Shown here: in pieces, positions 11,317 through 29,644 of the stretch | How positions within the stretch are numbered: position 1 is the first letter of the stretch | Layout of the letters: every line of letters begins with the position of its first letter | NCBI RefSeq assembly: GCF_018614975.1 | Contig: NZ_JAGGNR010000020.1 | Coordinates: 1-64,000 of the forward strand | Direction: 5' to 3' | DNA: 64,000 nt | DNA from: Paenibacillus polymyxa | GTDB lineage: Bacteria > Bacillota > Bacilli > Paenibacillales > Paenibacillaceae | Notes under the pieces: model-generated | What the model saw: the letters and a program-made list of their open reading frames with translations, nothing else | Told to the model about the DNA's origin: nothing | Databases searched by the model: none | Made by a program: the position numbers and the translations under genes

Positions 11317-11393
11317 CAAGTGATTAAAGGATGGTAAGAGGAAGGTGGGCGACTGCATTACCTTGTAACCACACTTTCTTGCACCTAGACAGA

Positions 11394-11430
11394 AAGAGCC
11401 AAATGGATCGTTTTGATCCACTCGGCTCTT
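11394..11430 (-). terminator. Probable terminator after the 1535-residue protein gene
   Basis: The arms AAGAGCC (11394-11400) and GGCTCTT (11424-11430) enclose a second pairing, TGGATC/GATCCA. The minus-strand continuation is TTTCTGTCT, a weak T run. It lies 62 bp past the stop codon. Confidence 0.65.
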
Positions 11431-11491: not shown

Positions 11492-14400
11492 TCACTGCTC
11501 TTGTTCAGAAAGTGTCGGTTCAACTGGCGCCTCATTGGCAAGTAGCTCCGAATCATCGGAATGCCGTTCGAACATAACCGCGTCAACCCTCGTATAGATC
11601 ATATCCGCAGGAAGTGTTGGCGGGTCTACCGTTGTAGGCGTAACCCTGGTTAACCGGACATACTCGCTGCCGTCACCCGTAAAGTCGAACGTTCCCAGGT
11701 TAACCCAACCCGATGATCCGACCGTTGCATCGATATAGGTGACCTCGGTACCCGTTTTATGCTTCACTTCCACTTTGACATGGTTATCGTTGGCCGTCGT
11801 ATGGACGAGTTTATAGATCGAGACCGTATATTTCCCTTCTGGAAACTCGCCTTTCCACGTCGCTGATGAGCCTTGAACGGTTGAATAGCGGGATTTAACC
11901 CCGATTTTGTATCCAGCTAAATTGCTTTGGCTCCACGACCCTTCTGTCGTGTATAACCCCGTTGTATCTGTACTGTCGACGATAACCGTTAGATCCTTAA
12001 TCGTAATGGTCAATGGCGGCGTTGTTAAGTTCACTCCGTCAATCGTGACAGTAGCCCATACCTCAATATGATCCGTGTCCCCATCGAGATTAAGAAGGGT
12101 CAACAACCCATTGCTATCCACTTCGGCCAGATCCGTACGATCAACGAAATACTGCACATTGGCCTGTGTTAGATCACCGATCAAACCGTTATCTAAATAG
12201 CCGGTTACGCTTAGTTGTGCGGTTTGAGTCATCTGCAGCTCGCTGCGATCGGACATGATCACAGCAGACTCCAATTGCGGTACCCTGTTTGGGTCCACCC
12301 ACATGATCGCATCGGCAACGACTCTGGACTTGTTGGCCTTATTGGTTAATTCCACGTACCCGCTATCGCCTGCAGCAAAAGGATAATCCCCCAGGTGCAC
12401 CCAAGTACCATTCGCTGTTGTCTCATCAACAGTAATTGTCTCGGAGCCTCCACTATAATAAACGGTAAATGAGGCATTTGTTGCCCAATTTTCACTCGCA
12501 GCCGTGATTTGCGGAATCTTGTAATACACACTGTAAGTGACACTTTCCGGCAGCTCAGGCCGCCATCTCATTTTGCTTGTCGCTGTGCCAGCCGTAGATT
12601 TGGCATACACATAGTTATCATAATAATAATCGTTAGCCGTCGTATCCCTTATCCAGACGCCTTCTGTCTCCGCCTCCGTATTATCCACTATGATAGAGGA
12701 ACTATCCTGCCCATCGGGTTGGACTGGCGTTTCCGATACCTGATCCGGCAGATAAAGTGTCCGCTTACGTGTCTGTTTCCCCTCCGATTCCACGTAATAC
12801 GTAAAGGTTTGGGATATATCATTCACCCGTATCGACCATTCCATCGGATAGATCGTATCTGGGATGGTCGTATACGTGGCCCCGCCATCCAGGGAATAAT
12901 GAATTGTCGCTGGTTTCGTTGTTTTGGCCTGCACATAAGCATCATAAACCGTTTCGTCGGGCTTAACGATCAGCATGCCTTTAACCGCATCAATTGGACT
13001 GTGTGTATCAAAGAAATAACTTGCATCCGATGGTTCAGCCGTTCTAACCTGATGCAATGGTACATCAATATCGAGTCCCTCTACAATGATCGCGGTGATT
13101 CCCTTGCTTGAAACCGTAGCTTGAATGATTCCACCACGCATAACCGTTTGCTCTGGTGTGCCATTGTCGCGGATGATCGTTACGGTGTAATCTTGTGCCG
13201 GGTTGAATCCAATGATATGTTCATTTAATTCAATTGGAGTCTGAACTTCTTCTGAAGATGCGTTGCTTAACCCGATGTAGAATTTATCTCCGCTCTCTCC
13301 TGTTATCCAGTTCAATTGAGGATCGTTAGTCTGGATGATCCCCTTGGGCATCCAAAGCCAAACGTCGGAGTTACCATAAAATTGACCTGGTTTATTCCCA
13401 TAGAGGTGATATTTAAACCATAAAAAATTCGTTTCAAAAACGGAAGGAAACGTAATACTCCCGTTTGATTTTAATGATTGTTCGCTAATCAAATAATCCA
13501 TCGTTTGTCCAAGCTGCCCCGGGATATGGTGATAATAAATGGATGTAGCCCCGCTTGGGCCTTCCAGTGGAAAATCCGGTTCAAGCTGGCTAACGGCGAA
13601 GCCCTTATAGTAATAACCTGGATAACTGGAATATCGTCCAATAACCGCATTATGAGCAATATCCTGCAGCAGTTTATCCCCTGTATAGAGCGACAATCTT
13701 AGCATGAACGGAGCTTCCTGAGCATTCATCCGATAATAGCCAGTGGTACTTCCTGCTTCAAACGTCAATCCGCTCGGTGAAACAAGCCAACGCTCCGCTT
13801 GAACCCCTCCGGCTATATCTTCGGGAAGCTTGAGTCTAGGATATTGAAATTTACCACTTTCCGGCCAATGGAACGACTCCGCATAATTATACGTCTCAGG
13901 CTGCGGAATCGTAACGTTACCTTCAGGAACCGGGCGAGCAACAAACATGGTTGCATAGCGTTTGGCTTCCTTATAGGCGGCATCCAAATATTTGGGATCC
14001 TGAGTTTCCTCATATAGCTCCAAGATCTCCATCCACAGCTTGCTGTAATAATAAATGAACTCATTTTTACTCACATCGACGGATGCAGGTGTATCGATAT
14101 GTTGCGTGATATAACTGTCGGCTGCATCCTTCGCAGCTTGCAAATACTGCGCATCTCCCGTCATCCGATACATCATCAGGGGCTGAATGACAGGCCCCCG
14201 GTCTTTCTGAGCCGGGTCACGCACGAGGTATTCTTCCTGTGCGAGTGCCCCAATTCCTGCCGAAGTGCCCATCATCTGATTGACAGCGGCTACGCTTGAA
14301 ACATCGAACGGCAGAGTAGCCATTTTCCATAAGGAAGGCACACCGTATACTTTCTTCTGCGTTGGCGACCAACCGATACCGTTTCGCGATACGCCATACT

Positions 14401-16099
14401 GGACGGACGGCAGTGCTCTCGTATCGTATAGCTGGTCATCCCCAGTTAAATAATAAGCTCCCAAAAGAACTGCATTCGAGCTTGTTCGAACGCTATCCTC
14501 GTTTTCGATATCAATAAAACCCTTGGCCCGACTCCACCACCCGCTGGGTGACGGAACATAATTAACAGAGTCGTCTCCTTGAGGCTCAATCTTAAGTAAA
14601 TCAATCATATTAAACATCGCGTCAGTGAGCGACTGATCTGAAACATTTTCCCGGTATGCTGAATAACCGTACTCATTGCGAAGAATATCCGCGTAAGACT
14701 CATACAGATTGCTTTTTTGAGCGGTTAGCCCCATATGAAATTGATAAGTGCTTTCTGCGGTCATTTGCGAATAAGTCCCTAATTGAGGCGCATACAGGAT
14801 GGGCTGCACGCTACCTTCGTTGTTGACAAGGCTCATGCCCAGCCGTTGTTTTGTAACGCCTCCCGTCGGTTCAAATTCAACCGGAAGCTCTGCCGAAGGT
14901 ACAAATATGCCATACGTCAATGGATTTCCCGTACCATCATTCTTCTCAACCAGGCTCATCGGAGCGCTCAGCTCTCTTAAGCTTGTTGATTCTGCTGTAC
15001 CTACCATTTTGGCATGTGATCTGAATCCATTTAACACCTCATTAATGCCCGAGACTGCCTCTGTTGTGAAGGACTGATATCCAATCACATAATTGCCGTT
15101 GCGGCGAGGCGTAAAGGCAAAAGAAACATCTGGTTTATCCCCTGCCATGGACCAGTTCACTTCAAAATCGTAATCACTGCCATGCGTAGAGTCGGTTAAT
15201 ACTGCCGTCTGGCTGTCAGGAAAATTGACCCCATCGAATGTAATCCAGCGTTTGTTCATCGTATCGTAGTAATTGGTTCGGCTGCCCGCATTTCCATCTA
15301 ATAAAACCCATTGCTCCTCAAGTCTTTCCGATTCATTATTGATTGGAACCCAGTTCCCCGTCTCTGTGTTTTTGTAAAACATGTCACGCACGATGGATTT
15401 GCCTCCATCCCATGCTGCCTCATAGAAGGTTGCCTTATAGTTATCATTTTCAATGCTGCCTTTTTCGGTGTAACTGAGATTCGCTAAAGTACGGCTCCGC
15501 AGCGGGGGCAAAGGTGGTGCTTGTTGACGGATATTCCCCTCGAACTTGACTGCATCAGCCCGCGTAATAATTGTACCCGTAGAAGGCTGCGTTCGAGTCA
15601 GCCTGACAAATTCGCTATCATCACCACTAAACTCATACTCCCCCAGATCCACCCATCCAACCGATGGACCTGACGAAGGTCTAAGATCCATAAACTTAAC
15701 ATCCGTAATCCCGTTATGAACAATCTCAATTTTCACATTACTATCTGCTTTATCCGCCCAATCCAGCTTATAGAACGATATTCTCGCCGTCCCTGCTTCC
15801 AAGCGTGGATTCCATGTAATGCTTCGACCTACGGCATCCGTATATTTGGAACTGGAATTATTATACCCTTTCACTCCCGTACTTGTGGTCCAATAAGGAG
15901 CAGAGAACCCGTTATTCGCGTTACCCGCATCAGGCGTCACAACATCATTAATCTTGATGCTCCCGTCATCGATGATAATCGTCTGATAAGGTAAGGTCTC
16001 CGCATAAGCGGCCCTTATTCCGATCAGGCTGGAAGGAACTACGATCATCAACATGAAAACGATGAAGAAAAACAACTTCCTTTTGACCATACAATTCAC
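11492..16099 (-). CDS. Giant secreted protein with three golvesin-like domains, putative glycan-active enzyme
   Basis: A 1535-residue exported protein; the signal peptide ends near residue 32 (GIRAAYAET). Three related beta-domains of golvesin C-terminal type lie at about 38-190, 1133-1268 and 1371-1509; each starts with IIxD/IVD and ends in RADAV/VADAI/RVDAV plus an aromatic or Met. An Ig-like segment sits at about 1270-1365. The centre (about 205-1040) has no motif I can name. Its repeated helices (TGDAQYLQAAKDAADSY, EETQDPKYLDAAYKEAKRY) suggest an alpha/alpha-toroid fold as in many lyases and glycosidases. Golvesin-like domains are known at the ends of xanthan lyase-type proteins. It shares a regulatory element with the importer genes upstream. 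The start is GTG (AAGGAG 5 bp before), or the ATG three codons later. Catalysis is inferred. Confidence 0.75.
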   Translation of the reverse strand: MNCMVKRKLFFFIVFMLMIVVPSSLIGIRAAYAETLPYQTIIIDDGSIKINDVVTPDAGNANNGFSAPYWTTSTGVKGYNNSSSKYTDAVGRSITWNPRLEAGTARISFYKLDWADKADSNVKIEIVHNGITDVKFMDLRPSSGPSVGWVDLGEYEFSGDDSEFVRLTRTQPSTGTIITRADAVKFEGNIRQQAPPLPPLRSRTLANLSYTEKGSIENDNYKATFYEAAWDGGKSIVRDMFYKNTETGNWVPINNESERLEEQWVLLDGNAGSRTNYYDTMNKRWITFDGVNFPDSQTAVLTDSTHGSDYDFEVNWSMAGDKPDVSFAFTPRRNGNYVIGYQSFTTEAVSGINEVLNGFRSHAKMVGTAESTSLRELSAPMSLVEKNDGTGNPLTYGIFVPSAELPVEFEPTGGVTKQRLGMSLVNNEGSVQPILYAPQLGTYSQMTAESTYQFHMGLTAQKSNLYESYADILRNEYGYSAYRENVSDQSLTDAMFNMIDLLKIEPQGDDSVNYVPSPSGWWSRAKGFIDIENEDSVRTSSNAVLLGAYYLTGDDQLYDTRALPSVQYGVSRNGIGWSPTQKKVYGVPSLWKMATLPFDVSSVAAVNQMMGTSAGIGALAQEEYLVRDPAQKDRGPVIQPLMMYRMTGDAQYLQAAKDAADSYITQHIDTPASVDVSKNEFIYYYSKLWMEILELYEETQDPKYLDAAYKEAKRYATMFVARPVPEGNVTIPQPETYNYAESFHWPESGKFQYPRLKLPEDIAGGVQAERWLVSPSGLTFEAGSTTGYYRMNAQEAPFMLRLSLYTGDKLLQDIAHNAVIGRYSSYPGYYYKGFAVSQLEPDFPLEGPSGATSIYYHHIPGQLGQTMDYLISEQSLKSNGSITFPSVFETNFLWFKYHLYGNKPGQFYGNSDVWLWMPKGIIQTNDPQLNWITGESGDKFYIGLSNASSEEVQTPIELNEHIIGFNPAQDYTVTIIRDNGTPEQTVMRGGIIQATVSSKGITAIIVEGLDIDVPLHQVRTAEPSDASYFFDTHSPIDAVKGMLIVKPDETVYDAYVQAKTTKPATIHYSLDGGATYTTIPDTIYPMEWSIRVNDISQTFTYYVESEGKQTRKRTLYLPDQVSETPVQPDGQDSSSIIVDNTEAETEGVWIRDTTANDYYYDNYVYAKSTAGTATSKMRWRPELPESVTYSVYYKIPQITAASENWATNASFTVYYSGGSETITVDETTANGTWVHLGDYPFAAGDSGYVELTNKANKSRVVADAIMWVDPNRVPQLESAVIMSDRSELQMTQTAQLSVTGYLDNGLIGDLTQANVQYFVDRTDLAEVDSNGLLTLLNLDGDTDHIEVWATVTIDGVNLTTPPLTITIKDLTVIVDSTDTTGLYTTEGSWSQSNLAGYKIGVKSRYSTVQGSSATWKGEFPEGKYTVSIYKLVHTTANDNHVKVEVKHKTGTEVTYIDATVGSSGWVNLGTFDFTGDGSEYVRLTRVTPTTVDPPTLPADMIYTRVDAVMFERHSDDSELLANEAPVEPTLSEQEQ

Positions 16100-16128: not shown

Positions 16129-16249
16129 AAAATGAGTTACCTTTTGCTCAAATGATCGTAAAAAAGCACTTAACCTTCCCCTTCTGCCTAATCCCGTTCT
16201 GTCGTTTTTATCTTAGCATGTTAGATCACAGTGAAATTTCTTTCATTTT

Positions 16250-16273
16250 AAGAATTTCTTATACGATTTTAAG
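16250..16273. promoter_or_regulatory. 24-bp shared promoter element, copy 1
   Basis: The plus strand reads AAGAATTTCTTATA, then C, then GATTTTAAG. A copy differing in one base lies at 26914-26937, before the importer operon. Here the element ends 34 bp from a minus-strand TAAGAT -10 box (16210-16215). It is the likely binding site of the AraC-type response regulator encoded at 19917-21527. Confidence 0.65.
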
Positions 16274-16285
16274 TAAATAAAAGAA

Positions 16286-16333
16286 ACCTACATCCTAATT
16301 GATTGCTCCGTTGCAGTCAGATAGAATGTAGGT
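16286..16333 (-). terminator. Terminator after the SGNH hydrolase gene
   Basis: On the minus strand ACCTACAT (16326-16333) pairs with ATGTAGGT (16286-16293) across a long loop and is followed by TTTCTTTTATTT. It separates the SGNH transcript from the promoter of the giant gene. Confidence 0.65.
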
Positions 16334-16362
16334 CTCCCAAGTGTTCCAGGAGGACTAATTAA

Positions 16363-17571
16363 TTATAATGGTGGCTGCACCAATAGCAACTTCCCAAGCT
16401 GAATGACCGTTTGATTATACCAAGCTGGATGCTGCCGCACATGTTCCATACTTCGTTCATTGCCGCTTGCCTCAAACACGGCCGCTTTGTCTGTCTTCTC
16501 GTGATCGAGCTCGAAGCGAACGGTATGTTTCCCATTTGGTAGCTCCGGCAAGAAAACATATTGATTTCGATCATGATCGTTATAGGGTGTGAATCGATCA
16601 ATAAGGAAGGGTTCCCCTCCATCCACCGACACCTTCAATCGGCCAGAATCCGGCCCCCCGATATCGAATAACCCGATGTGGGTTCCCTCAAACTCCACTG
16701 TGATCGCCTCTCCGGGATCAACTGCTCGCCATAGACCTGGGAACAACCAATCGTACTTGCGCACCAAAGCAAAATTATCAGGGGTCATATAAGACCATCC
16801 TGCCGAAAAAAGAGTAAGGTTATCCAGCGGCAGCATGGTCGCATACTCCCAAGGATTGGACGGGACCAAGGGGGCCTTCGGCAAGTGATGCTCAACCTTT
16901 CCCACGCGATCTCGAAGTTCTCTGATTTTCTCAAACGACCGGGTGATTGTGTCCGTGTAAATCTGGTGTCCTTCGGGAATCGTTGGATGGATCGAGTCAT
17001 GCGTAAAGATAATGGCTCCGGGAATGGACACGTCTGCCTTTGAGGTGAAAATAAGCTTTCCATCCGAAACCAATTGACTGACCGCAACGCCCAGATGAAT
17101 GGAAGGAATGCCGTAATAGTCGGCGACTTCCTCTTGCATAAGAGCGCCCTTCTGGTATTCGCCGGATTGAAATAAGGCCACATCCCGCTCCTTAACCGTA
17201 TACACAAACAGAATATCGGTAAACCGGCTGCACTTGCGAATCTGTCGGACAATGCCTTCGATCCGCGCCTTGGACTCGGGAACTCCGCTATCGTTACCAA
17301 CAAATTCAACAAACACAAGATCAGGCTGATGACGCAGCACATCCGTCTCCAAACGGGCGCAGCCGAGGTCCGATCCTGTCCCATCAATGCCTGCGTTCAC
17401 AGAGCGGATATCCGCATGGAGATATTGCCCTCGCAGCCAATCCGCCGTCATGACCCTGTATCCTTCAGAACGCGTATTACTGCCGCCGAAATAGACAATT
17501 GTTACGGTTTCCCCATTTTCCAACTTCTGAATGACATTAGGCAGCCCTCTTCGAGGGAAAAATTCCTTCAT
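16363..17571 (-). CDS. SGNH/GDSL-family hydrolase with C-terminal beta-domain
   Basis: A 402-residue putative carbohydrate esterase with no signal peptide. All SGNH blocks are visible: nucleophile Ser31 in YFGGSNTRSEG, the NAG segment at 59-61, Asn93 in FVGNDSG, and the catalytic pair Asp192/His195 in HDSIHPT. Residues about 270-400 form a beta-rich domain that may bind sugar. Such enzymes often remove acetyl groups from polysaccharides (rhamnogalacturonan acetylesterases among them), but this substrate is unproven. The ATG at 17571 is preferred because GGTGAGG precedes it. A GTG at 17592 overlaps the upstream gene by 4 bp but has no ribosome site. It is co-transcribed with the FAD oxidoreductase. 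Confidence 0.85.
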   Translation of the reverse strand: MKEFFPRRGLPNVIQKLENGETVTIVYFGGSNTRSEGYRVMTADWLRGQYLHADIRSVNAGIDGTGSDLGCARLETDVLRHQPDLVFVEFVGNDSGVPESKARIEGIVRQIRKCSRFTDILFVYTVKERDVALFQSGEYQKGALMQEEVADYYGIPSIHLGVAVSQLVSDGKLIFTSKADVSIPGAIIFTHDSIHPTIPEGHQIYTDTITRSFEKIRELRDRVGKVEHHLPKAPLVPSNPWEYATMLPLDNLTLFSAGWSYMTPDNFALVRKYDWLFPGLWRAVDPGEAITVEFEGTHIGLFDIGGPDSGRLKVSVDGGEPFLIDRFTPYNDHDRNQYVFLPELPNGKHTVRFELDHEKTDKAAVFEASGNERSMEHVRQHPAWYNQTVIQLGKLLLVQPPL

Positions 17572-17588
17572 CTCGACCTCACCCGCCC

Positions 17589-19805
17589 TCACTTAGCGTT
17601 TTTAGGAGCAAAAAGTTTTACAGCAAACACTTCATAATAAGGTGAACCATACGTTGCACAGAAATCAAACCGAATTTGGGTAACCCCTTTTGCATGCACC
17701 TGATGTTTATTCAACGAAAGATAATTCCCGCGGACTTTAATCTCACTCTTGGTTCCGTCTTCTAACGTTAAGGTCACATCATAATCCTGGATCAGTGGCT
17801 CGATCGGATCGTCGAAATGCTCCAAATTCAGCTGTGAATTGAAGACAAGATGGATTTCATCCAGATTTTTGGGGCTTGCAAAACCAAGTTCCAACCATTC
17901 CTGTCCTTCCGTACGTTCCGAAATCCAGACGTTTGGCAGACCATAAGGTCTGGAGAAGCCGTTGACGACATTCGCGGGATTATACATATCTTGGGATGGT
18001 TTCAGATCCTTGAAACAAATGCTCTTATTAAGTTTCTTCAACCTGGATGGCTCTTCCGGTCTATAAAGGAAGCTAACCGCTCCAGTCATTTTCTCTTCAT
18101 TGCTGTGTACAGCAAGGCACGCCGTACCTTCCAATACGATGTAGATTTTGTCGTCTTCTGGCTTCTTGCAGCTGAGGTCCAGTGTAATCCAGTCATCGTG
18201 ACCCGCTGAAATCACCAAGTTGTAGCCCTTCAGCTCACTGGTGGGAATATAGTTTTCCTTCCGATCACCGCTATACAGCTTCACTTGCAACGTTTCCGAA
18301 TGCTCGGATCTATTTTTAATTTTGATCTGCACGCTTTCAGCCACGGATGTCTTAATCGGCAAGACCAAACATAACGCGTTCTCCAAGGAGATCTCTTCGG
18401 TTGGATGAAGTTGTTCATAACTTCGCTGAGACGAGGCACGAATCGTTAATCCGTCTGCGAAATAAGAATCTAACGGCTCTTGAAGGCCTACAATCGTTTG
18501 CCCGTCTCGAAGTAGCTGCGCCTGAAGCTCACCCATATGGGCTTTGACGATGGCCGCAGGGTCTGTATCGTATTTTACGCATAACGCAGCAGCCGTTCCT
18601 ACCGCCTGCCCCATACAACCACAGGTTGCCATCACCCTTGTGGACCCAAAAGCCACATGTGTAGCGCTTATATTGCGGCCAGCGAACATGAGATTGGGAA
18701 TATTACGTGAAAATAAGCTGCGAAAAGGGATATTATACAATCCCGGCACGAAATTCCACGCTGTAGCCGGCCCCTCATCGTAGATGCCTTTATTTGCATG
18801 CAGATCCATATACCAACCTCCGACGGACACAGCATCTTCGAAATGAGGTTTGGCTGTAAGATCGTTCTGAGATAGCATATGTTCTCCTATAAACCGCCTC
18901 GACTCCCGCTTTCCCGGAATCGGGCACACATAATCCAGAATAAGATTGTCTACATCATCGAACTCGCCGCTATTTTTGATATAATCCCAGATCCCATACA
19001 CTAATTTCCGCAGTTCCAAGGCGATGTCCTCATTATTCTTGATAATATCCATATGTCCGCCGTATTCCAGCCACCACAATCCTCCAAGCCCGTTGATTTT
19101 CCTTGGAAAAGACCGATGGTTTAATCCTTTTCTGATACTATCAAAAAACTCCAGCTTCGTAATATCATACGCAAAGCCAGGCCTCTTGTAAGGAACGGGA
19201 TAGTCTACGTCACGGGCTTGAAACAGAATCGTATCACCCATCGTGTAATGATCCACCATTTCTGGAGCGAGCTCCTCCTGGTATTCATGCTTCGCCTCTC
19301 TTCCCCATCGGAAGTGAGCGCCTGCCTGATATCCAACAATCCCGTCGCCGGAGCAATCGATATAGGTTGGGCTTTCAAAACGGAATTTTCTTTCGGAAGC
19401 CAATTGAAGGCCCTCCACCCATTGGATTCTGCCGTTCTCCATGCCGGTTTCATGTACGCATGTGTTCAGGAATAGAGAAATGTTGGGCTCATCATAAACC
19501 ATGTCAAGCAAGACCGTATCCGAAAGTGAAAGCATAAGTTTTTTGTTGTATAACGGATTGTAATGAAAGATCTTCAGTTTGAGTTCTTCCACCAACCCGC
19601 CTTCGCGAGCATAATAGGATGGACTGTTTCCGAGATATGCAGACCCATTGATATGAACTCTGACCTCGCTGCTCGCATTTCCCCCAAGCACCGGTCGATC
19701 ATTAATAAGTGCAACCTGCAACCCTTGGCGTGCGGCAGCAATGGCAGCACATATCCCGGCAATTCCTCCACCTACGACGGTTACATCTGCTTTCATAAGT
19801 TCCAT
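17589..19805 (-). CDS. FAD-dependent oxidoreductase (FAD_oxidored family) with discoidin-like tail
   Basis: A cytoplasmic flavoprotein of 738 residues. The N-terminus carries the Rossmann motif VTVVGGGIAGICAAIAAARQG and the second signature VLGGNASSEVRVHI, typical of the FAD_oxidored (PF12831) group. Further blocks are YIDCSGDGIVGYQAGAHFRWG and, near residue 400, MFAGRNISATHVAFGSTRVM. The last 150 residues resemble a galactose-binding/discoidin module (NVVNGFSRPYGLPNVWIS). Members recur in carbohydrate-use loci, but their substrates are poorly known; oxidation of a sugar or uronate is a reasonable guess. GGAGG lies 8 bp before the ATG at 19805, favouring it over an ATG five codons earlier. 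It leads the two-gene unit with the SGNH hydrolase. Confidence 0.85.
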   Translation of the reverse strand: MELMKADVTVVGGGIAGICAAIAAARQGLQVALINDRPVLGGNASSEVRVHINGSAYLGNSPSYYAREGGLVEELKLKIFHYNPLYNKKLMLSLSDTVLLDMVYDEPNISLFLNTCVHETGMENGRIQWVEGLQLASERKFRFESPTYIDCSGDGIVGYQAGAHFRWGREAKHEYQEELAPEMVDHYTMGDTILFQARDVDYPVPYKRPGFAYDITKLEFFDSIRKGLNHRSFPRKINGLGGLWWLEYGGHMDIIKNNEDIALELRKLVYGIWDYIKNSGEFDDVDNLILDYVCPIPGKRESRRFIGEHMLSQNDLTAKPHFEDAVSVGGWYMDLHANKGIYDEGPATAWNFVPGLYNIPFRSLFSRNIPNLMFAGRNISATHVAFGSTRVMATCGCMGQAVGTAAALCVKYDTDPAAIVKAHMGELQAQLLRDGQTIVGLQEPLDSYFADGLTIRASSQRSYEQLHPTEEISLENALCLVLPIKTSVAESVQIKIKNRSEHSETLQVKLYSGDRKENYIPTSELKGYNLVISAGHDDWITLDLSCKKPEDDKIYIVLEGTACLAVHSNEEKMTGAVSFLYRPEEPSRLKKLNKSICFKDLKPSQDMYNPANVVNGFSRPYGLPNVWISERTEGQEWLELGFASPKNLDEIHLVFNSQLNLEHFDDPIEPLIQDYDVTLTLEDGTKSEIKVRGNYLSLNKHQVHAKGVTQIRFDFCATYGSPYYEVFAVKLFAPKNAK

Positions 19806-19916
19806 TTGGATAACCTCCATGATTAGATGCTCCTATCATGGTAATGGTTTTGGCACCTTTTTTTTTACAGGATTTCGCGAAAAAATCATACATTTTTTGC
19901 ATCCTTATTTGGATTC

Positions 19917-21527
19917 CTACCGTGTCATTTTTATCCGATATTGCTTAGGCGTATCCCCCGTGTATTCTTTGAATAGTTTGCAAAAGTACCCTTCATTGAC
20001 GATCCCTACTTCCTCGCACAATTCCAATAAAGAATAATCCCGACCGTTTAACAACTCGAGAGCAAGATGGATTTTTTTACGGTTAATGTAGCTAATCACG
20101 CCTTCGTTCATTGTTTTTTTGAATAAGCTGCTAAAATACGATGGCGCTAGATTCACTTCCTCCGCAATTGCCTCCAGCGTTAAGCGTTGTTTCAAGTTTG
20201 TCTCTATAAAATGAATAGCACTCATAATTTCTGCACGATGTAACAGTTGGCCCGCATGCACGTATTCAAATGTGAAGTCGCCAATATAGGCGAGCTGCTC
20301 TTGAAATGCCATAAATTCCATAGGGAATTCTGGAACTTCTGTGGTCATCTTGTTCCCCGATTTAAATTTCACGGTAATGTCTCTGTACAAGTCTCTAATC
20401 ATTGGCGCCATGATAGACTTATGGATTTTATGGTCGGTAACAAATTGCGACAGATCGGCAAGTGCATTGTCCAGCTCTTCCTTGGAAATCTTCCTCTTCA
20501 GCCGTATAAGAAAATCAGCCAGCTTCTGCTGAAAATCTGCTTTTTTGTCATTATGGTATTGGAACCGATGCATCGGTGTTTTTACAACTTTTTCGGCATG
20601 ATAATAGAAATCCTCACTCACATTTTTAGCTTCCGTGTATGCCTGTTTGATCGATTCCCAGCCTCGGTGCGGACTTCCAAAAGCGACAGATACCCTTTGA
20701 TTCAAATATTGATGCAAATGAGAAATGATCTGCCCTCCCAAGGATAGGCAAGCATATTCCGTTTCCATATCACTGCGGTTATTTTCCCAGGATAAAAAGC
20801 CAATAAAACGATGATCGGACAGATCCGCAGCTACCCCACTGCTACCATTCATCACTGTTTCTTCGATGATATTGGTAATCGCATACTTCAAGATGTTTTG
20901 ATCTGCGGCCGCGTATTCGTTGCGGAAACTTTCATACGTATTCATCTCAACGATGAAGCAGCAGTAGTTGGCTTGAAAGAAATGAAACTGCATGCGATTG
21001 GCAAAATCCGATGCCCGATGAGAAGGAATTTCACCTCGGATCAATTCGTTAAAAAATTGCTTGCGGACTCTGTATTTATTTTCAAGCACGGATACGTTTA
21101 ACGAGTGAAATTCCGCTTCTTTTTTCTCAAACTCATTTAAAATTCCAGCTGCCTTATCCAACGCTCGATTCAAATCTGCTTCCCTTAGCGGAACCTTTAC
21201 AATGTACTCCAATACGTTGGCTTGAATAGCTCGCTGGGCGTATTCAAAGGATGAATAGGCGGTCAAAAGTATGTACTGGGTATGGGGGAGCACCGGCTTG
21301 AGCTGTTCAATCATGGAGATGCCATCCATTCGCGGCATTACAATATCGGATATGACGATATCCGGTTTAAGTTTTATGATCTCCTCGATCCCATTCAAGC
21401 CATTATTCGCTTTGCCCACCAGAACAAATCGTCTATCCAGATGAGAGAGCTCATTAAAAAACAATTCCAATCGTTGAATGATCAGGTCTTCATCGTCAAC
21501 AATGAAGCAGGTATAGTCTCTCCCCAT
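19917..21527 (-). CDS. YesN-type response regulator with AraC output domain
   Basis: A 536-residue response regulator. The receiver domain (about 1-125) has the acidic pair at VDDED and phospho-acceptor Asp61 in VISDIVMPRMDG. A linker of about 300 residues follows. The C-terminal 100 residues are an AraC double HTH (LTLEAIAEEVNLAPSYFSSLF and SLLELCEEVGIVNEGYFCKLF, then YTGDTPKQYR). It starts one base inside the histidine kinase stop codon, so the two are translationally coupled. It probably activates the importer and enzyme genes, and the repeated 24-bp element at 16250 and 26914 is its likely target. Confidence 0.93.
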   Translation of the reverse strand: MGRDYTCFIVDDEDLIIQRLELFFNELSHLDRRFVLVGKANNGLNGIEEIIKLKPDIVISDIVMPRMDGISMIEQLKPVLPHTQYILLTAYSSFEYAQRAIQANVLEYIVKVPLREADLNRALDKAAGILNEFEKKEAEFHSLNVSVLENKYRVRKQFFNELIRGEIPSHRASDFANRMQFHFFQANYCCFIVEMNTYESFRNEYAAADQNILKYAITNIIEETVMNGSSGVAADLSDHRFIGFLSWENNRSDMETEYACLSLGGQIISHLHQYLNQRVSVAFGSPHRGWESIKQAYTEAKNVSEDFYYHAEKVVKTPMHRFQYHNDKKADFQQKLADFLIRLKRKISKEELDNALADLSQFVTDHKIHKSIMAPMIRDLYRDITVKFKSGNKMTTEVPEFPMEFMAFQEQLAYIGDFTFEYVHAGQLLHRAEIMSAIHFIETNLKQRLTLEAIAEEVNLAPSYFSSLFKKTMNEGVISYINRKKIHLALELLNGRDYSLLELCEEVGIVNEGYFCKLFKEYTGDTPKQYRIKMTR

Positions 21528-23266
21528 TATGCATCTCCTTTTGGCAATTCTGCCGGGAATACAGCGCGTATACGGGTTATTTCCTTAGGTATGCTTATGA
21601 TATCCAGCCCGAATTGATCTCCGTAGTGGAGTCTTATTCGCCCATGAATATTGTTCAGCCCGATTCGTTTTCTTTTTACTTCCTCTTCACTCGGTTCTGA
21701 GATTAAAATATGTTTTATTTTATCAGCTGGAATTCCCTCTCCTTGATCAACAACTTCGATGATGACGATGCCGTCCTCCCTGTACGCATGAATCGTAATT
21801 GGCCCCTCAATTCCCCCTCCGTTATAACCATGGAAGATACTATTCTCCACAAGGGGCTGCAGCATCATTCGGAAAACTGGGAAATCCATCAGTCCTGCTT
21901 CGATATTTTCAATCAAGTTGAAGTTTCGGTTATACCGAATGTTCTGAATCTCGATATAGTCCGCTACATTGCGTAATTCCTGGCGCAGGGAAACCTTCTC
22001 TGAAGCATCGTCTATCCCGTACTCCAATAATGAAATAAGCGACCCGATCACCACATCTACTTTCTCTATTTGTCCGAGACGTATCACATTGCTGATCGAA
22101 CCAAGTGTGTTATACAGAAAATGAGGGTTAATTTGAGACTGTAAAACCTGGATTTCCAACTTCCGCTCAAGTTCATTATGAAGCTCGGCTCGGCGAATCA
22201 GTTCAACAATCTGCTGAAGCATACGATCGAATGCTCGTGAAAGATCCCCAAACTCATCGTTTCGATTAATCGTTACTGTCGTTGTGAGGATGCCTTGTTC
22301 CACCTGCTTCATTTTTGTTTTGAGCGTATAGAGTGGTTTTCTTATATATTTGGCAACCAAAAAAGAAATGAACAAACTTAAAAGAAGACCTGCAGCGAGC
22401 AGCTCGAGGTAATAGGTTTCCAATCTGGACAACGCTGCTTTTAGGCGTGATTCATCATTGATCGAGATGATGGTCCAGTTGAATTTCTCCGTTGGTTTTT
22501 TCAAAAGGGAGACCGGAGTGCCTTCGTTGGTATACAGTTGAAGGTTTGTTTCTGTCGTATCCAGAATTTCTTCCGCTGACGTTTCTCCGATCGAAAAAGA
22601 ATGATCTTGAATATTCAGAGGACCCTTATTTTCAGAAAATCCGGCAATGATCTTACCTGACGCAGTGATCAGAGCCAGATTCATTTGTTCCTGTTTATTA
22701 ATCTTGAACAAGGTTTCTTCAATAGCATTTAGATCCAAATCAACCGCAATGGCCATAGGAAACGCAGCACCGTTCAGATATCGAACCATCGTAACTGTCC
22801 AGCCGGAATACTTCGATTTGTAAGGTTCACTAACAAAGGTAGTCCTTCTATTCTTGTCAGCCGCATCAAACAAAGGGGCTCTTTCAGATAAAGGTTCATC
22901 GAATATTCGAGTAGGTGTACTTCCACCCAGAATGGATAAATCGCTTTTGATCAAATAAATATTACTGACATAAATACTGTTGAGTTCATACAGCTCCCTT
23001 AATTGCTTTTTAATCACTTCGGTATTGTTAATGTTGGCTTTCACTGATGTTTCGACTGAGAAGAGAATCGTCTGGAAGGAGGAAAAATTAACGGTGAAAT
23101 ACTGGTCTACCTTGTCTAGTATTTGATTGGTGTAAAAAATGTCATTGGTTCTTATTTCCTTTTGGACATAGCGATAAGACAATTGGCTTATCAAGATGAT
23201 GCAGCTCAATACAAATGCAAACACGATAAAAAATAATTTTAAAGGCAAGCTGATTCTTCTTCGCAT
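21527..23266 (-). CDS. YesM-type sensor histidine kinase
   Basis: A 579-residue membrane kinase. One helix lies at about 8-32, followed by an extracellular sensor domain to about 280, a second helix at about 285-307 and a HAMP segment. The HisKA_7TM-unrelated His_kinase domain has His382 in QSQINPHFLYNTL, and the ATPase region has the N box LQPLVENSIFHGY and the G motif DQGEGIP. YesM kinases sense oligosaccharides, often with help from the ABC transporter, and phosphorylate the AraC-type partner encoded next. It lies downstream of the lipoprotein gene, with a hairpin in the 96-bp gap, so it may be expressed partly by readthrough. Confidence 0.93.
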   Translation of the reverse strand: MRRRISLPLKLFFIVFAFVLSCIILISQLSYRYVQKEIRTNDIFYTNQILDKVDQYFTVNFSSFQTILFSVETSVKANINNTEVIKKQLRELYELNSIYVSNIYLIKSDLSILGGSTPTRIFDEPLSERAPLFDAADKNRRTTFVSEPYKSKYSGWTVTMVRYLNGAAFPMAIAVDLDLNAIEETLFKINKQEQMNLALITASGKIIAGFSENKGPLNIQDHSFSIGETSAEEILDTTETNLQLYTNEGTPVSLLKKPTEKFNWTIISINDESRLKAALSRLETYYLELLAAGLLLSLFISFLVAKYIRKPLYTLKTKMKQVEQGILTTTVTINRNDEFGDLSRAFDRMLQQIVELIRRAELHNELERKLEIQVLQSQINPHFLYNTLGSISNVIRLGQIEKVDVVIGSLISLLEYGIDDASEKVSLRQELRNVADYIEIQNIRYNRNFNLIENIEAGLMDFPVFRMMLQPLVENSIFHGYNGGGIEGPITIHAYREDGIVIIEVVDQGEGIPADKIKHILISEPSEEEVKRKRIGLNNIHGRIRLHYGDQFGLDIISIPKEITRIRAVFPAELPKGDA

Positions 23267-23319
23267 GGATAATCTTCCTTTTAGTTCCGTTTTAAACTAA
23301 GAATAGCATATGCGAATAA

Positions 23320-23350
23320 AGAGAGGGGCTACGAATAGCCACTCTCTCTT
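23320..23350 (-). terminator. Terminator or attenuator after the solute-binding protein gene
   Basis: On the minus strand GAGAGAGTGGCTA-TTCG-TAGCCCCTCTCTTT forms a hairpin with one mismatch and a short T end. It sits directly after the lipoprotein stop codon and before the kinase gene, so it may lower expression of the regulatory pair relative to the transporter. Confidence 0.6.
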
Positions 23351-23362
23351 CGTTTATTTATT

Positions 23363-24949
23363 TCACTTGATAAGGCCGGCTTCTTTAAATTGCTGGATTG
23401 CGGTATCCTTATATTTCTGCATGTCAAACTTGGTGTCCAGCGTCTGGAGGAAATTGTCCCAGTTGGAAAGTGGCTCTTTGCCCGTCATAAATTTAACTAA
23501 ACTTTCATTGATGAAACGTGTGCGGTCAGCATCCAAGGTATCGCTTGGGTCTGGGGTCAATAAATTTCCGGGGAGCGTTGGCCCCACATATTGCTGATTG
23601 TTCTTGAAAGCTTCCGCTGTCTTAGGATTCTGGAAGCTGAAATACTCCGCATCATCACCACGGCGTGGCATTCTATAATGATCAACCCACAGGTACTTTT
23701 CTTTCATTTCCTTTGATAATTCTGAGGTTTTATTTTTGATCTTGCCGTCTACGATATCCCAATGGATGCCTTTGATTCCGTATGCAAAGTTCGGATAAGC
23801 TTTTTCATCCGTAAAGAGATAATTTAGCATGGACAAGATTCGAATAATTTTGTCCTCGTCCGCTTTTGCGGATATGGCCCATGAATTGCCCTGGAATGAT
23901 TTTCTCTCTACAATTTGATCCCCGTAAGGACCTTTCATCGGAGGAATAACGATCCATTCCGGCACCTCTCCACTAATTTCTTTCATTTTCTGTTGATAAT
24001 CCGGCTCCAGTCTGCGAGCATCTCTGATCATGAAGCCAACTCTACCCTTAAACATCTTTTGATCCAACAGATCAGGCGAATTCATCGTCACCCAGTCCGG
24101 GTCAACCACCTTTGCTGCCATCATTTTATTAATGTAAGCAAGCGCTTCTTTCATTTTGGGATCGATAAACAGAAATATCGGTTCATTATCTTTTATCTCA
24201 ACGGCCGAAGGAGGATTGACGCCAAACATCCACATCAAACTATCAAAGCCGTAGGTCTGCAGATTACCTTCTTTATTCATACCGCCGATGAATCCGTACG
24301 TATCGTTTTTACCATTCCCGTCCGGGTCTTTCTCTGTAAAGGCTTTCATAACTTTGAACAACTCATCAGGTGTTGTTGGTACCTCCATATTCAGCTTTTT
24401 CAGCCAATCGTTACGGATGAAGAAGCTACGACTGATACCGTTTACATTATCATAACCTGGAACTCCAATGGTTTTACCTTGATAGGACATTGCCTCCCAT
24501 GAGTCGGTGCCAAATCGCTTCTGTAGTTCAGGAAACTGATCCATATACGGTGTCAAATCCGCAAGAACACCTTGGTCGTAATATTGCGCGAGATCAGCAC
24601 GACTCTTCAAAAAGATCAAGTCTGGAATATCCCCGCCTGCAATGAGTGTATTCAGTTTAGTTGTTGCTTGACCCGCTTGAGGAATCATCATATCCAAGTC
24701 GATGTTCATCTCTTCTTCCAACATCTGACGTTGAATATCTTCATCTCGTGGAGGTACCGGAGCAGCCGCATTAAAAGTGCCTTGGTTAAACATTGAGATT
24801 TTCATTTTGGTTGCAAACTGGCCAGACTGGCCTTGCGAATTACTCGAAGTTGTCGATGTAACTTCTTCATTTCCCCCACATCCTGACAAAAGCGTTCCAA
24901 GTCCTAAGATTGCCGACAGAATAATAAATGAAATCTTTTTACGCTGCAT
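23363..24949 (-). CDS. Oligosaccharide-binding lipoprotein of an ABC importer
   Basis: A 528-residue extracellular solute-binding protein. The lipoprotein signal is MQRKKISFIILSAILGL followed by the lipobox LSGC (Cys24). The rest is the long family-1 fold of LplA/YtcQ-type proteins. It includes IPDLIFLKSRADLAQYY and the EF-like loop DPDGNGKNDTYGF (about 205-217), a calcium-binding-looking segment recurrent in this group. It delivers a sugar to the two permeases encoded just upstream. No ATPase gene is present; this transporter class normally shares an MsmX-type ATPase encoded elsewhere. The ligand is unknown. Confidence 0.92.
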   Translation of the reverse strand: MQRKKISFIILSAILGLGTLLSGCGGNEEVTSTTSSNSQGQSGQFATKMKISMFNQGTFNAAAPVPPRDEDIQRQMLEEEMNIDLDMMIPQAGQATTKLNTLIAGGDIPDLIFLKSRADLAQYYDQGVLADLTPYMDQFPELQKRFGTDSWEAMSYQGKTIGVPGYDNVNGISRSFFIRNDWLKKLNMEVPTTPDELFKVMKAFTEKDPDGNGKNDTYGFIGGMNKEGNLQTYGFDSLMWMFGVNPPSAVEIKDNEPIFLFIDPKMKEALAYINKMMAAKVVDPDWVTMNSPDLLDQKMFKGRVGFMIRDARRLEPDYQQKMKEISGEVPEWIVIPPMKGPYGDQIVERKSFQGNSWAISAKADEDKIIRILSMLNYLFTDEKAYPNFAYGIKGIHWDIVDGKIKNKTSELSKEMKEKYLWVDHYRMPRRGDDAEYFSFQNPKTAEAFKNNQQYVGPTLPGNLLTPDPSDTLDADRTRFINESLVKFMTGKEPLSNWDNFLQTLDTKFDMQKYKDTAIQQFKEAGLIK

Positions 24950-25014
24950 ATTGACCTCTCCTTTGCTTGTATATTATCACGGTTTCCCCGTAATAAGTTA
25001 GGTTGGAACACCTT

Positions 25015-25884
25015 TTAACCTTTAACGGATCCCAGGAGTACACCTTTGGTAAAATGCTTTTGCAAAAATGGATAAACGATCAATATCGGGACTGTAGTCA
25101 CAACAACTGTAGCCATCTGCACAGCGAACGTACTGACAGCCCCGGAATTGGCGAGCGAATCAGCGCTTTGAGTTGCGACGTTAAGCAGGATGTTGCGCAA
25201 AATCACTTGAAGTGGCATGTAGTTGGAATCATTGATATATACAATGGCATCAAAATAACTGTTCCAATGCCCGACTGCGTAAAATAAGGAAATGGTGGAA
25301 AGGACGGGTAAGGACAGGGGTAAAATGATCCGCCATAACGTCTGGAGCTCACTGGCACCATCTACCCTCGCTGATTCCTCGATTTCACCAGGTAATTGCT
25401 CAAAAAAGCCTTTGATGATCACCAGATTAAATGCACTAATGAGATTTGGAATGATCAATACCCAAGGACTGTTTAACAATCCCAGAGAGCGGATTAGTAA
25501 ATATGTCGGAATTAATCCCCCACTGAACATCATGGTAAACACAATGAAGAGTAAAAACGGACTTCTTCCCGGCAAATATTTTTTGGATAACGGGTAGGCC
25601 GCGATTACTGTAAAAAACACATTTAATGCAGTGCCTACAATTGTTCGAAACAACGTAATTTTATACGCCTGCCATATCCCATGAGAAATGAATACTTCTT
25701 TATAGGCCAGAAAGGTAAAGGATTCTGGTATAATCACAATTCCTCTTCTTAATACTTCCGATTCCGGGGTTACGGAGACAGCAACCACATATAGAAAGGG
25801 TAGCACGCAAAGTAGAGATAACAAAATAAGAATCACATAAACGACGGTTTGCCAGACTTTTTCCCCAATTGTCATATGGATCAT
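25015..25884 (-). CDS. ABC sugar permease, LplC/YtcP type
   Basis: A 289-residue inner-membrane permease with six helices. The MalG-like EAA loop is EIEESARVDGASELQTLWRI (about 178-197), which docks the ATPase. The ending LQKHFTKGVLLGSVKG is characteristic of LplC proteins. I choose the ATG at 25884 because GTGAGGTGG lies 8 bp upstream; an ATG at 25914 would overlap the upstream permease gene and has no ribosome site. It acts with the LplB-type partner and the lipoprotein. Confidence 0.92.
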   Translation of the reverse strand: MIHMTIGEKVWQTVVYVILILLSLLCVLPFLYVVAVSVTPESEVLRRGIVIIPESFTFLAYKEVFISHGIWQAYKITLFRTIVGTALNVFFTVIAAYPLSKKYLPGRSPFLLFIVFTMMFSGGLIPTYLLIRSLGLLNSPWVLIIPNLISAFNLVIIKGFFEQLPGEIEESARVDGASELQTLWRIILPLSLPVLSTISLFYAVGHWNSYFDAIVYINDSNYMPLQVILRNILLNVATQSADSLANSGAVSTFAVQMATVVVTTVPILIVYPFLQKHFTKGVLLGSVKG

Positions 25885-25897
25885 TCTCAAGACCACC

Positions 25898-26845
25898 TCA
25901 CCAGATTTGCCCATCGAATTTTTTGGCGAGCTTATTCGCTGCCAACACTAAAGCAAATCCGATGACCGCTTTAAACAATCCTACAGCAGTAGCCAAGCCG
26001 ATCTTAAGACGCTCCAACCCTTCCCGGTATACCCATGTGTCGATAATGTCGATCTTCTCCTGGTTAAAGGTGTTGGAAAACATGAATATTTGGTCAAAAC
26101 CCGCATCCAGGATATGGCTTAATTTAAGAATCAGCATCAGAATAATGACTCCACGAATACCGGGCAACGTGATATGCCATAGCTGTCTCCATTTGGAAGC
26201 ACCATCCATTCGAGCCGCTTCATATAAGCTTGGATCTATTCCTGATAATGCTGCAAGGTACAATATCGCACCCCATCCGATATCCTTCCATACTTCAGAT
26301 AAGATGATCAGCATTCTCCCCCAGGCAGGTTCCGTTAGAAACGAGATGGGTTCAACACCAAAATCCTTTAAAATCATGTTAAAGAGACCATCCCCTGGGG
26401 CTAGTAATGCTACCATAATTCCATAAACGATGACCCATGATAGAAAATGAGGTAAATAAGTGATTGTCTGTACGATTTTCTTAAACCATTGGCTATAAAC
26501 GTCATTGAGGAGTAAAGCAAGTACGATGGGCGCGGAGAAACCGAACAATAGCTTATACAGCGATATGATGATCGTATTTTTCATGATGTCCCAGAAATAA
26601 ACGCCGTTCATAAAATCCGTAAAATTTTTGAATCCCACCCATGGGCTATCCCATAGTCCCAGAGCCAGGTTGTAGTTTTTAAAAGCAATCATGATTCCCG
26701 CCATAGGAATGTATTTGAATACCGCAAAGTAAATTAAGGCTGGTAATAAGAGAGCATACATCACTTTGTACTTTTGTATCGTCCTTATCCATGTCTTTCG
26801 CTTTTTGGAGATGGGAATGGCGTCCGCTGCCAATTTTGCTTGCAT
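25898..26845 (-). CDS. ABC sugar permease, LplB type
   Basis: A 315-residue inner-membrane permease with six helices and the EAA loop SLYEAARMDGASKWRQLWHI. Typical LplB landmarks are YIPMAGIMIAFKNYNL near the N-terminus and the ending FALVLAANKLAKKFDGQ. The ATG at 26845 has AGGTG 5 bp upstream, whereas an ATG 13 codons earlier lacks a ribosome site. It is the first gene of the importer operon (LplB, LplC, lipoprotein, then kinase and regulator). Its promoter region carries copy 2 of the shared 24-bp element. A good -10 box (TATTAT on the minus strand, 26875-26880) with no good -35 suggests activator dependence. Confidence 0.92.
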   Translation of the reverse strand: MQAKLAADAIPISKKRKTWIRTIQKYKVMYALLLPALIYFAVFKYIPMAGIMIAFKNYNLALGLWDSPWVGFKNFTDFMNGVYFWDIMKNTIIISLYKLLFGFSAPIVLALLLNDVYSQWFKKIVQTITYLPHFLSWVIVYGIMVALLAPGDGLFNMILKDFGVEPISFLTEPAWGRMLIILSEVWKDIGWGAILYLAALSGIDPSLYEAARMDGASKWRQLWHITLPGIRGVIILMLILKLSHILDAGFDQIFMFSNTFNQEKIDIIDTWVYREGLERLKIGLATAVGLFKAVIGFALVLAANKLAKKFDGQIW

Positions 26846-26913
26846 TTCATCACCTCGTCTTTGTTTGTATTTGTATAATAGCACCCGCCTATCAGATAAA
26901 TTGCTGATATATC

Positions 26914-26937
26914 AAGAATTTCTTATAAGATTTTAAG
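26914..26937. promoter_or_regulatory. 24-bp shared promoter element, copy 2
   Basis: The plus strand reads AAGAATTTCTTATA, then A, then GATTTTAAG, identical to the copy at 16250-16273 except for one base. It ends 33 bp from the minus-strand TATTAT -10 box, against 34 bp at the other copy, so it sits just upstream of each -35 region. Confidence 0.65.
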
Positions 26938-27111: not shown

Positions 27112-29412
27112 TTACTTCTCCGATGGGAGTGGTGTGAAGAGCAGATTGACCGGCAGGTTGCTTCCTGGCGCGGCAGAGAATAGAATCGTTACGCTCTCTC
27201 CAGTTGATCCGGTGCGGTAAAGAACGCTTTGTTCACTTGAATTGGCAACCGCAACGTTACCTTCGGCAATCGATACCAACTGATTGTTCACCAGAGCTAC
27301 TCCGGAGTACTTCCCTCCACGAGGGTTAAAGGAGATAAGCGTACGCGGTGCAACATTGGTCAGCGTGATTTTGTACAATACGCCGAAATTACCCGCATTG
27401 GATGCGTCTGTGTATGCCATCGGATCTGTTCCTACCAGATTGGGATCGCTTGAATTGTCACCAAGTGGCAGACGGGCCGGTTTGGTTCCCACGTGCTCAT
27501 CGTACTTTATGATGCGAGTCGCATTCGGATACGTACCCCGATTGTGTACTCCGTCACGATCAAGCACGGGAAGCAATGGCAAGGCTTCGAACGGATCTTT
27601 ATTTTCTTCCACCAGGATAACGTTATAGTCTAAGGAATAATCACTATATGCATCCGAATAGAGAGAGATGACTTGTCCTTCTTTCATCGGCGTTTTATTA
27701 AGTTCAGTCAAAATCAGTTTGCTTTCCCCAGGTTGAAGGTACTCTTTCTTTTGATCCGCTCCAGTCTGAATCGACTTGAACCATTTATCAATAGACAATT
27801 TCCCAGCTACGGTAGCATAAGGTGTAGGTCCGGCAAAGCCCATGTTCTGTTGTTCAAATACTGCCGGATTTGGATTGTTATTGGTTGCAATCACATACAT
27901 TTTTACTCTTTTGCCTGTATTGTTCACGTGGTGAATCATGAAACGGGTCTGCCCCAAAGATGATTCTTTATATACAATGCCTTCCGTATTCACAGTTTCC
28001 GGACTGTTACTGCGGATCAGCAAACTTGGCTCATCCATGTACGTATAAGGCACTTTCTCCATGGTAGTCACTTCGCCGCCGTTAAAAGTGAATTTCTGTC
28101 CTATTGGCGTGAAGAGTAAATTAAAATCGGTAAATGAATATAAGGTCTCATTGGTTATGGTGATGACTTTGGAGTACGTGTTCGTAGCGCCGTGATTGTC
28201 AGTAACCGTAAGAGTCACCGTTTTGGGACCCGGTTCAAAGAACGCAAGTGAATTGTTCTCCCACACCGCTTTAACAATACTATTTTCATCATCTGTGCTT
28301 TGATCTGCGTATGTTATTTTTTCGCCCATTTTATATTGTTCTTTATCCGTGGCGAACATGGCTACAGGAGGAAGGTTAGGACTCAATACTTCAATGGTAA
28401 CCGAATAGGGATCACTCCATTGTCCGTTGGAATCCTGTACTTGATATGAAATCGTATATGTACCTGCTTGATCAAATGAATCCTGGCGACCTGTCCAGCG
28501 TTCGTCAACGATATCCATTCCATTAGGTGAACTGGAAGAAGTCACGTAGTCCACTTGATCACCCGCAAAGATTTCCTTTTGGGAAATGGTAAAGCTTGCA
28601 ACAGGTTTTGTATTAAGATTCAACACAACCGTTTTAGCCGACTGATTCACTTTATAGGTGATGTTCAGAGCTTGAGTAATGGAAGTTAACGGCACCATGA
28701 ATGTACTTTTTTGCTGATATGCAGGGCCTTTCATCGTTCTTGTCTCTCCATTGACGGTATAGTCCTTGCTGTTCGTCTTGAATCGGAGTTCATCCTCACC
28801 ACTAATAATGATCGTTTCCTTGGTTTTGTTATCATATTTGACGCCGTATCCCACACGGTCAACCAGCGCACGGATTGCAACATAGGATACACCGTTTTTT
28901 ACAGCCATTGGCTGGCCAGCAAGATACGTTTTTCCATCCTGCTCCATTTTATTGCTATTCATGTACAACGTCAGATTCCCACCTGTTGCTACAGGAGACG
29001 TCCCATCAATGGATGGTTGCTCTATTTGAGCAGGCGTAGCTGGCGTTTCCACCTTCTCAGGGGTTTCCTCTTGAACTACAGGTTTCGTACCCGTTTCGTT
29101 TGTAGTGGTCTCTCCCCCATCCAATGCAGGTTTCTCGCTATCTGTTTTAGGTGTTGCCTCAGTGCCGGTTGAGGTTTGAGTGTCCTTGGCTTCAGTGGGC
29201 GGAGTATTGATAGATTTGTTATTGCTCTCCGTCTTCACTTCACGCTCTGCAATCGGCTGCTCTTGTTTTAACACCTCAACTGATTCTACATTGGCCGTGT
29301 TTACTGACGCGGTGTCACCTTGCGGTGCTGATTGCGCATACACAGAACCGACTGCAAAGGCTTGAAAAACGGCTAAAGCGGTAAAAATAGATAATTTCTT
29401 CTTCATATTCAT
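27112..29412 (-). CDS. Secreted protein with copper-amine-oxidase-type stalk domain and PKD repeats
   Basis: A 766-residue exported protein of unknown function. The signal peptide is MNMKKKLSIFTALAVF...VYAQSA. A Thr/Pro/Glu-rich low-complexity stretch runs to about 140. Next comes a stalk domain of the copper amine oxidase N-terminal type (about 142-264; LTLYMNSNKM, VSYVAIRALVDRVGY, FMVPLTSITQAL). Despite the name, this domain has no oxidase active site and is common in Paenibacillus surface proteins. Two PKD-like folds follow (about 266-340 and 350-430; DNHGATNTYSKVITIT), then about 330 residues I do not recognise. The ATG at 29412, which begins the signal peptide, is chosen over one 16 codons earlier. 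It appears monocistronic. Confidence 0.75.
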   Translation of the reverse strand: MNMKKKLSIFTALAVFQAFAVGSVYAQSAPQGDTASVNTANVESVEVLKQEQPIAEREVKTESNNKSINTPPTEAKDTQTSTGTEATPKTDSEKPALDGGETTTNETGTKPVVQEETPEKVETPATPAQIEQPSIDGTSPVATGGNLTLYMNSNKMEQDGKTYLAGQPMAVKNGVSYVAIRALVDRVGYGVKYDNKTKETIIISGEDELRFKTNSKDYTVNGETRTMKGPAYQQKSTFMVPLTSITQALNITYKVNQSAKTVVLNLNTKPVASFTISQKEIFAGDQVDYVTSSSSPNGMDIVDERWTGRQDSFDQAGTYTISYQVQDSNGQWSDPYSVTIEVLSPNLPPVAMFATDKEQYKMGEKITYADQSTDDENSIVKAVWENNSLAFFEPGPKTVTLTVTDNHGATNTYSKVITITNETLYSFTDFNLLFTPIGQKFTFNGGEVTTMEKVPYTYMDEPSLLIRSNSPETVNTEGIVYKESSLGQTRFMIHHVNNTGKRVKMYVIATNNNPNPAVFEQQNMGFAGPTPYATVAGKLSIDKWFKSIQTGADQKKEYLQPGESKLILTELNKTPMKEGQVISLYSDAYSDYSLDYNVILVEENKDPFEALPLLPVLDRDGVHNRGTYPNATRIIKYDEHVGTKPARLPLGDNSSDPNLVGTDPMAYTDASNAGNFGVLYKITLTNVAPRTLISFNPRGGKYSGVALVNNQLVSIAEGNVAVANSSEQSVLYRTGSTGESVTILFSAAPGSNLPVNLLFTPLPSEK

Positions 29413-29644
29413 GCGTTGTCTTTGGCTCCTTCTACTCTCTAGTAATTTATAACCCCTCATAAAGTCATAATATTAGACGCTAGATTTAGGAAAAAGTTTC
29501 TAATTCAATTGTAAATTATGGATTTCAGTGCAGCTATTTTTTCAATGTTTGGTTATAAGTTCTTTGAATATGAAACGCCTATTGAATAATAGTCTTGATT
29601 TTGCACAAGATAATCCATGTCGCATTTGATAAAGAGGTGGATCA

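Follow-up and report, generated by a model that had tools for sequence, protein, structure and literature searches.

Two near-identical 24-bp sequences lie 10.6 kb apart in the window (the whole 64,000-nucleotide stretch of Paenibacillus polymyxa DNA analyzed here), one before a giant gene and the other before an LplB-type permease gene. The earlier note took them to tie the two transcription units into one regulon and to mark the binding site of the AraC-type response regulator encoded at 19917–21527. We asked whether the two copies could have arisen by chance, how far the conserved unit extends, and which protein is likely to act on it.

A YesMN/CUT1-type gene cluster

All genes of the cluster lie on the minus strand. 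The main operon opens with the LplB-type ABC permease (25898–26845), whose start we re-assigned to the ATG at 26845 behind GAGGTGAT; this is most likely the true start, and not the GTG at 26884. Pfam matches identify a second ABC permease of the LplC/YtcP type (25015–25914), an extracellular solute-binding protein (SBP_bac_1, 23363–24949) and a YesM-type sensor histidine kinase with HAMP, His_kinase and HATPase_c domains (21527–23266). The YesN-type response regulator (19917–21527), a receiver with a C-terminal AraC helix-turn-helix pair, is the ligand that we propose for the element. It is followed by an FAD-dependent oxidoreductase (PF12831, 17589–19820), whose translation more likely starts at an ATG a few codons inside, behind GGAGG, than at 19820, and by a GDSL esterase (Lipase_GDSL_2 with a weak CE2_N match, 16363–17592). 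A Rho-independent terminator at 16281–16338 (minus strand, −30.1 kcal/mol, z −7.8), between the GDSL gene and the giant-gene promoter, parts the main operon from the giant-gene transcription unit.

The Pfam content of five genes is that of a YesMN/CUT1 (LplABC-like) system: a PF06580 kinase with HAMP, a receiver-AraC regulator, two BPD permeases and a solute-binding protein. No ABC ATPase was found among the nine proteins scanned. The regulator at 19917–21527 is the sole DNA-binding regulator among the conserved cluster genes.

The giant gene (11492–16099, minus strand) encodes a secreted protein of 1535 aa with three golvesin-C type domains, one of which matches the C-terminal part of a Paenibacillus xanthan lyase (structure 6f2p). 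Its central stretch weakly resembles GH127/GH88; the GH127 match covers a short stretch only and scores 20.2 bits, below the cut-off of 24.9, and the AlphaFold model of the central region (pLDDT 51.8) was too poor for use. The giant protein is presumably a secreted polysaccharide-degrading enzyme. Most relatives carry ∼160 additional residues after the signal peptide, an insert that the protein of the window and a few others (e.g., those of loci L071, L081 and L084) lack.

Beyond the lplB promoter lies a copper-amine-oxidase-N/PKD gene (27112–29460). Few relatives have it beside the cluster, and it is therefore probably not part of the regulon.

The conserved unit is longer than 24 bp and is phased to the promoter

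The copies of CTTAAAATCKTATAAGAAATTCTT at 16250–16273 and 26914–26937, both on the minus strand, differ by a single base (G/T at column 10). One stands before the giant gene and ends 34 bp from its −10 box, TAAGAT; the other stands before lplB and ends 33 bp from the −10 box TATTAT. Positions, mismatch and spacers all agree with the earlier note. Its extent for the element could be refined. Footprinting over 89 distinct related Paenibacillus loci, gathered with the response regulator as query, placed the conserved unit at ∼40 bp, CTTAAAATCKTATAAGAAATTCTTRAAATnnMAGAAATTT, and disclosed a 21-bp direct repeat that had been overlooked. The footprint was kept in 84 lplB-side and 65 giant-side copies; the upstream flanks were variable, and conservation dropped again between the footprint and the TGC-TANNAT −10 region. 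The spacer was 33 or 34 bp wherever a −10 box could be matched (148 of 149 copies).

On the lplB side, operator 1 covers 26898–26937 on the minus strand, including the 24-mer at 26914–26937, and carries the direct repeat CTTAAAAT...CTTGATAT at 21 bp; its −10 box occupies 26875–26880. Operator 2, at the giant-gene promoter, covers 16234–16273 on the same strand, including the 24-mer at 16250–16273, with CTTAAAAT...CTTAAAAT at the same 21-bp spacing and the −10 box at 16210–16215. At both promoters TGC precedes the −10 box and a −35 box is lacking: when it was sought in 84 lplB promoters, 77 matched TTGACA at only 1 of 6 positions (best of three spacings), and the giant promoter reached no more than 3 of 6. 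The operator spans about −70 to −31 from the expected start, and its proximal end lies over the −35 region.

The half-sites read RAAAT-nnn-RKAA and form a direct repeat 21 bp apart. Column self-similarity peaked at this offset (CTTAAAAT/CTTRAAAT), with an equally high peak at 18, so the half-site boundaries are uncertain. As read from the sequence, the layout corresponds to an AraC-type class II activator site, with a direct repeat of ∼21 bp, a fixed −10 register and a weak −35 region. At E. coli araBAD, the AraC half-sites I1 and I2 stand head-to-tail 21 bp apart, end over the −35 region and serve class II activation. The half-site spacing and the placement over −35 are alike here; unlike AraC, which binds its sugar directly, the regulator of this cluster would be expected to activate through phosphorylation of its receiver domain.

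The same overlap with the −35 region might instead point to repression or anti-activation by the regulator at the element, since some AraC-family members block polymerase there, and a TGC-extended −10 can function without a −35 box. A fixed −10 register together with an absent −35 is, however, typical of activator-dependent promoters, and the characterized relatives XydR and, by the account in PMC10269863, XynC control uptake or enzyme genes upon substrate. We regard repression as very unlikely, and activation as the better reading of the site.

The element is confined to its own locus

When the window was shuffled 100 times, the element was not matched once at ≤3 mismatches. Across the whole genome (6.57 Mb in 67 contigs), just the two 24-mer copies were found at the same threshold, and a reversed-pattern control gave zero matches. 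Because neither the shuffles nor the genome scan yielded a further match, chance identity of the two copies, which the earlier note had called improbable, can be ruled out. When 25 diverse copies were used to build a profile covering the element and its promoter, the two sites were recovered with E values of 1e-14 and 4e-12, the next best hit having an E of 0.05. That hit (G000:C7:87097), a partial match without evident promoter context, was set aside. The earlier note had proposed the scan at three mismatches and held that scattering of the element over unrelated loci would speak against its reading; the scan found the element at its own locus only. With no site elsewhere in the genome, the regulon appears limited to its own cluster, which is usual for YesMN systems without strictly defining them.

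The element occurs where the regulator occurs

In 26 of 26 loci of the genus the gene order was identical, and exactly two copies of the element were present in the same places. When the 24-mer was sought in 75 genomes of the genus, it was found at the locus in all 27 that carry the regulator; elsewhere in the 75 genomes there were two lone matches, each with 3 mismatches, a number comparable to the 3 given by the control. The search was widened to 396 genomes of the family with a 37-base version of the footprint and 3 mismatches allowed. Matches occurred at 108 places in 60 genomes, and these 60 were exactly the genomes with a regulator at least 66% identical. The element was found in none of the 5 genomes with distant regulators only (≤55%) and in none of the 331 without a regulator match; the reversed control gave no match in the 396 genomes. 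All element matches compared were no farther than ∼8 kb from the regulator gene. Divergence of the element grew with divergence of the regulator (Spearman −0.57), a correlation to which shared ancestry contributes.

These scans bear on the idea that the element is the site of a different, global regulator of the catabolite or stress type, found by chance at two promoters here. A motif alone names no protein, and 159 partial matches point to many further AraC-type regulators in the genome. The site of a global regulator should, however, be scattered, and it was not, either in its own genome or across the 396 genomes of the family; moreover, the element was missing from every genome without a relative of the regulator at 19917–21527. 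The genus and family scans thus lead us to reject a scattered element, and we consider a global regulator highly improbable in comparison with the regulator of the cluster. Co-occurrence is nonetheless partly expected, because the genes of the cluster are inherited together, and the weight of the argument therefore rests on copy loss and rearrangement.

Copies are lost with the genes that they precede

Among loci with a close regulator, 62 carry the giant gene and 18 do not. The giant-side copy was present in 61 of the 62; in the 18 without the giant gene it was absent from 15 and decayed in 3 (with 3, 6 and 9 changes; Fisher p 2e-12). The lone exception, L142 (regulator 87.6% identical), has lost the terminator, operator and promoter between the GDSL and giant genes by deletion, and its giant gene begins about 40 bp behind the GDSL gene. 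With promoter and terminator gone and the GDSL gene so close, the giant gene of L142 could be read from the main operon.

Three rearranged loci show the element before other genes that lead the units of the regulator: before the kinase gene in L206, before a different 1491-aa protein (24% identical to the giant protein) in L151, and before a 704-aa protein with weak sugar-enzyme/lectin matches in L204.

Near-identical copies 10.6 kb apart can also come from duplication or conversion, and the pair might be a recently duplicated promoter segment, or a mobile or repetitive relic, with no regulatory role. Against this, the likeness of the two sites ends at the 40-bp footprint and the −10 box in all loci, and both copies are maintained across the family, decaying only where the downstream gene has been lost. 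A relic of this kind is therefore the least probable of the explanations considered, to the point of being almost negligible, and maintained operators account better for the pair.

A probable third, weaker site before the FAD-oxidoreductase gene

The two-copy picture of the earlier note stood for the near-identical pair, but missed a weaker, diverged third copy. This probable operator 3 (19861–19900, minus strand) sits in conserved form in the ∼97-bp gap between the regulator and FAD-oxidoreductase genes. Its best-conserved half, GAAATCCTGTAAA at 19864–19876, is the proximal one, and a candidate −10 box, TACCAT (19838–19843, minus strand), shares its register with those of operators 1 and 2.

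Because A-tracts recur at intervals of ∼10 bp, an earlier register test that took mixed spacers as its anchor failed to discriminate. The operator profile was also scored in register at every TANNAT hexamer of each of 82 loci. Over these loci the hexamer of operator 3 had a median rank of 4 among about 900; in most of them it ranked 2nd to 8th of ∼720–1110 hexamers, in many directly after operators 1 and 2, and in the window it came 6th of 883. In deeper relatives operator 3 came directly after operators 1 and 2 and well ahead of the rest (with a score of 16.5 in L208, the next being −6.2; 9.3 in L200 and L201). On the in-register rank result we grade the site before the FAD-oxidoreductase gene as a probable, rather than certain, third copy of the operator.

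Discussion

These data suggest that (i) the element is very probably the operator of the YesN-type regulator of its own cluster, encoded at 19917–21527; and (ii) through it the genes of the cluster would be activated together by a class II mechanism. Both the single regulon and the regulator assigned to it by the earlier note find support in sequence architecture and promoter register, in confinement, in co-occurrence and in co-loss; binding, activation, phosphorylation and the sugar signal are what we infer beyond these.

The following course of events is proposed. An oligosaccharide, perhaps presented by the solute-binding protein, would be sensed by the YesM-type kinase (21527–23266), which would phosphorylate the regulator (19917–21527). 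The phosphorylated regulator may then occupy the 40-bp site at about −70 to −31 as a head-to-tail dimer, stand in for the absent −35 contact and recruit RNA polymerase as a class II activator. Its targets would be the lplB-lplC-solute-binding protein-kinase-regulator operon, which would create positive feedback, the giant enzyme gene as a separately terminated unit and, more weakly, the FAD-oxidoreductase and GDSL genes.

This kind of arrangement has been described before, and the present locus is a well-supported further member. In Geobacillus stearothermophilus, the XynD/XynC two-component system lies beside the oligosaccharide ABC transporter XynEFG; as in our cluster, a kinase and a response regulator adjoin a CUT1-type transporter, and there the control of the transporter genes responds to oligosaccharide. 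The two loci differ in gene order and substrate (the Geobacillus system as cited in PMC10269863), and in our cluster a further proposed site of the regulator precedes a presumed enzyme gene >10 kb away. XydR of the Clostridium cellulolyticum XydS/R system is likewise an AraC-type response regulator, and gel shifts were run on target promoter fragments, but its authors found no consensus binding site (PMC3572039); here the 89 related loci yield a 40-bp site in exact register. The pneumococcal TCS07 system is also of the YesMN type and serves glycan use, and for its regulator RR07 a candidate A/T-rich motif, CTWWWWWWAG, lies 39–60 nt before the transcript start (PMC11034029). It differs in this motif and in a regulon that spans many operons, as opposed to one cluster here.

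Other regulator loci were inspected for similar pairs. On contig C35 of the same genome, CTATASTTTRTCAGGTTGTTGTA occurs at L248:8682–8705 and 12663–12686 (G000:C35), with TACACT following each copy after 15 nt. One copy precedes the gene of a 371-aa AraC-type response regulator, after which come a kinase, a second regulator and permeases; the other precedes a GDSL esterase gene. The locus as a whole holds AraC-type regulators, a kinase, two permeases and the GDSL esterase; elsewhere in the genome this element has one weak match only, with 3 mismatches (C8:74497). A distant YesN-type locus (L157, G368:C44) has the near-identical pair GCCTCATnGnnGCATGATATCCTA at 11384–11407 and 12192–12215, before two neighboring genes and preceded by a common A/T-rich block. 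At L234 (G000:C41), near-identical copies of CGTGAATATTATGTTAnnTGAAGT lie at 12643–12666 and 15397–15420, with a similar sequence near 13450 and GC-rich hairpins adjacent; this element likely belongs to a different regulatory family.

We tentatively suggest, as a possibility somewhat short of even, that each YesMN-type sugar locus of Paenibacillus might have a private operator, repeated only within its cluster before the transport/regulator operon and the enzyme genes. The C35 locus fits this pattern. Of the 20 regulator loci inspected in this genome outside the present cluster, most had no near-identical intergenic pair at ≤4 mismatches; either the private-pair pattern is therefore not general, or the other sites diverge more.

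Paenibacillus is very rich in AraC-type response regulators, yet the open-licence literature searched gave no defined operator for any of them, an absence that is weak evidence. The present locus provides a predicted operator in full: half-sites and promoter register can be given, some relatives have copies that decayed naturally, and one has lost the promoter by deletion. The locus also links a large, unclassified secreted protein with a single uptake system, and it indicates that the extent of such a regulon can be read from sequence. If private operators are the rule, many insulated regulons of one genome would be readable from its DNA through locus-confined, promoter-phased repeats.
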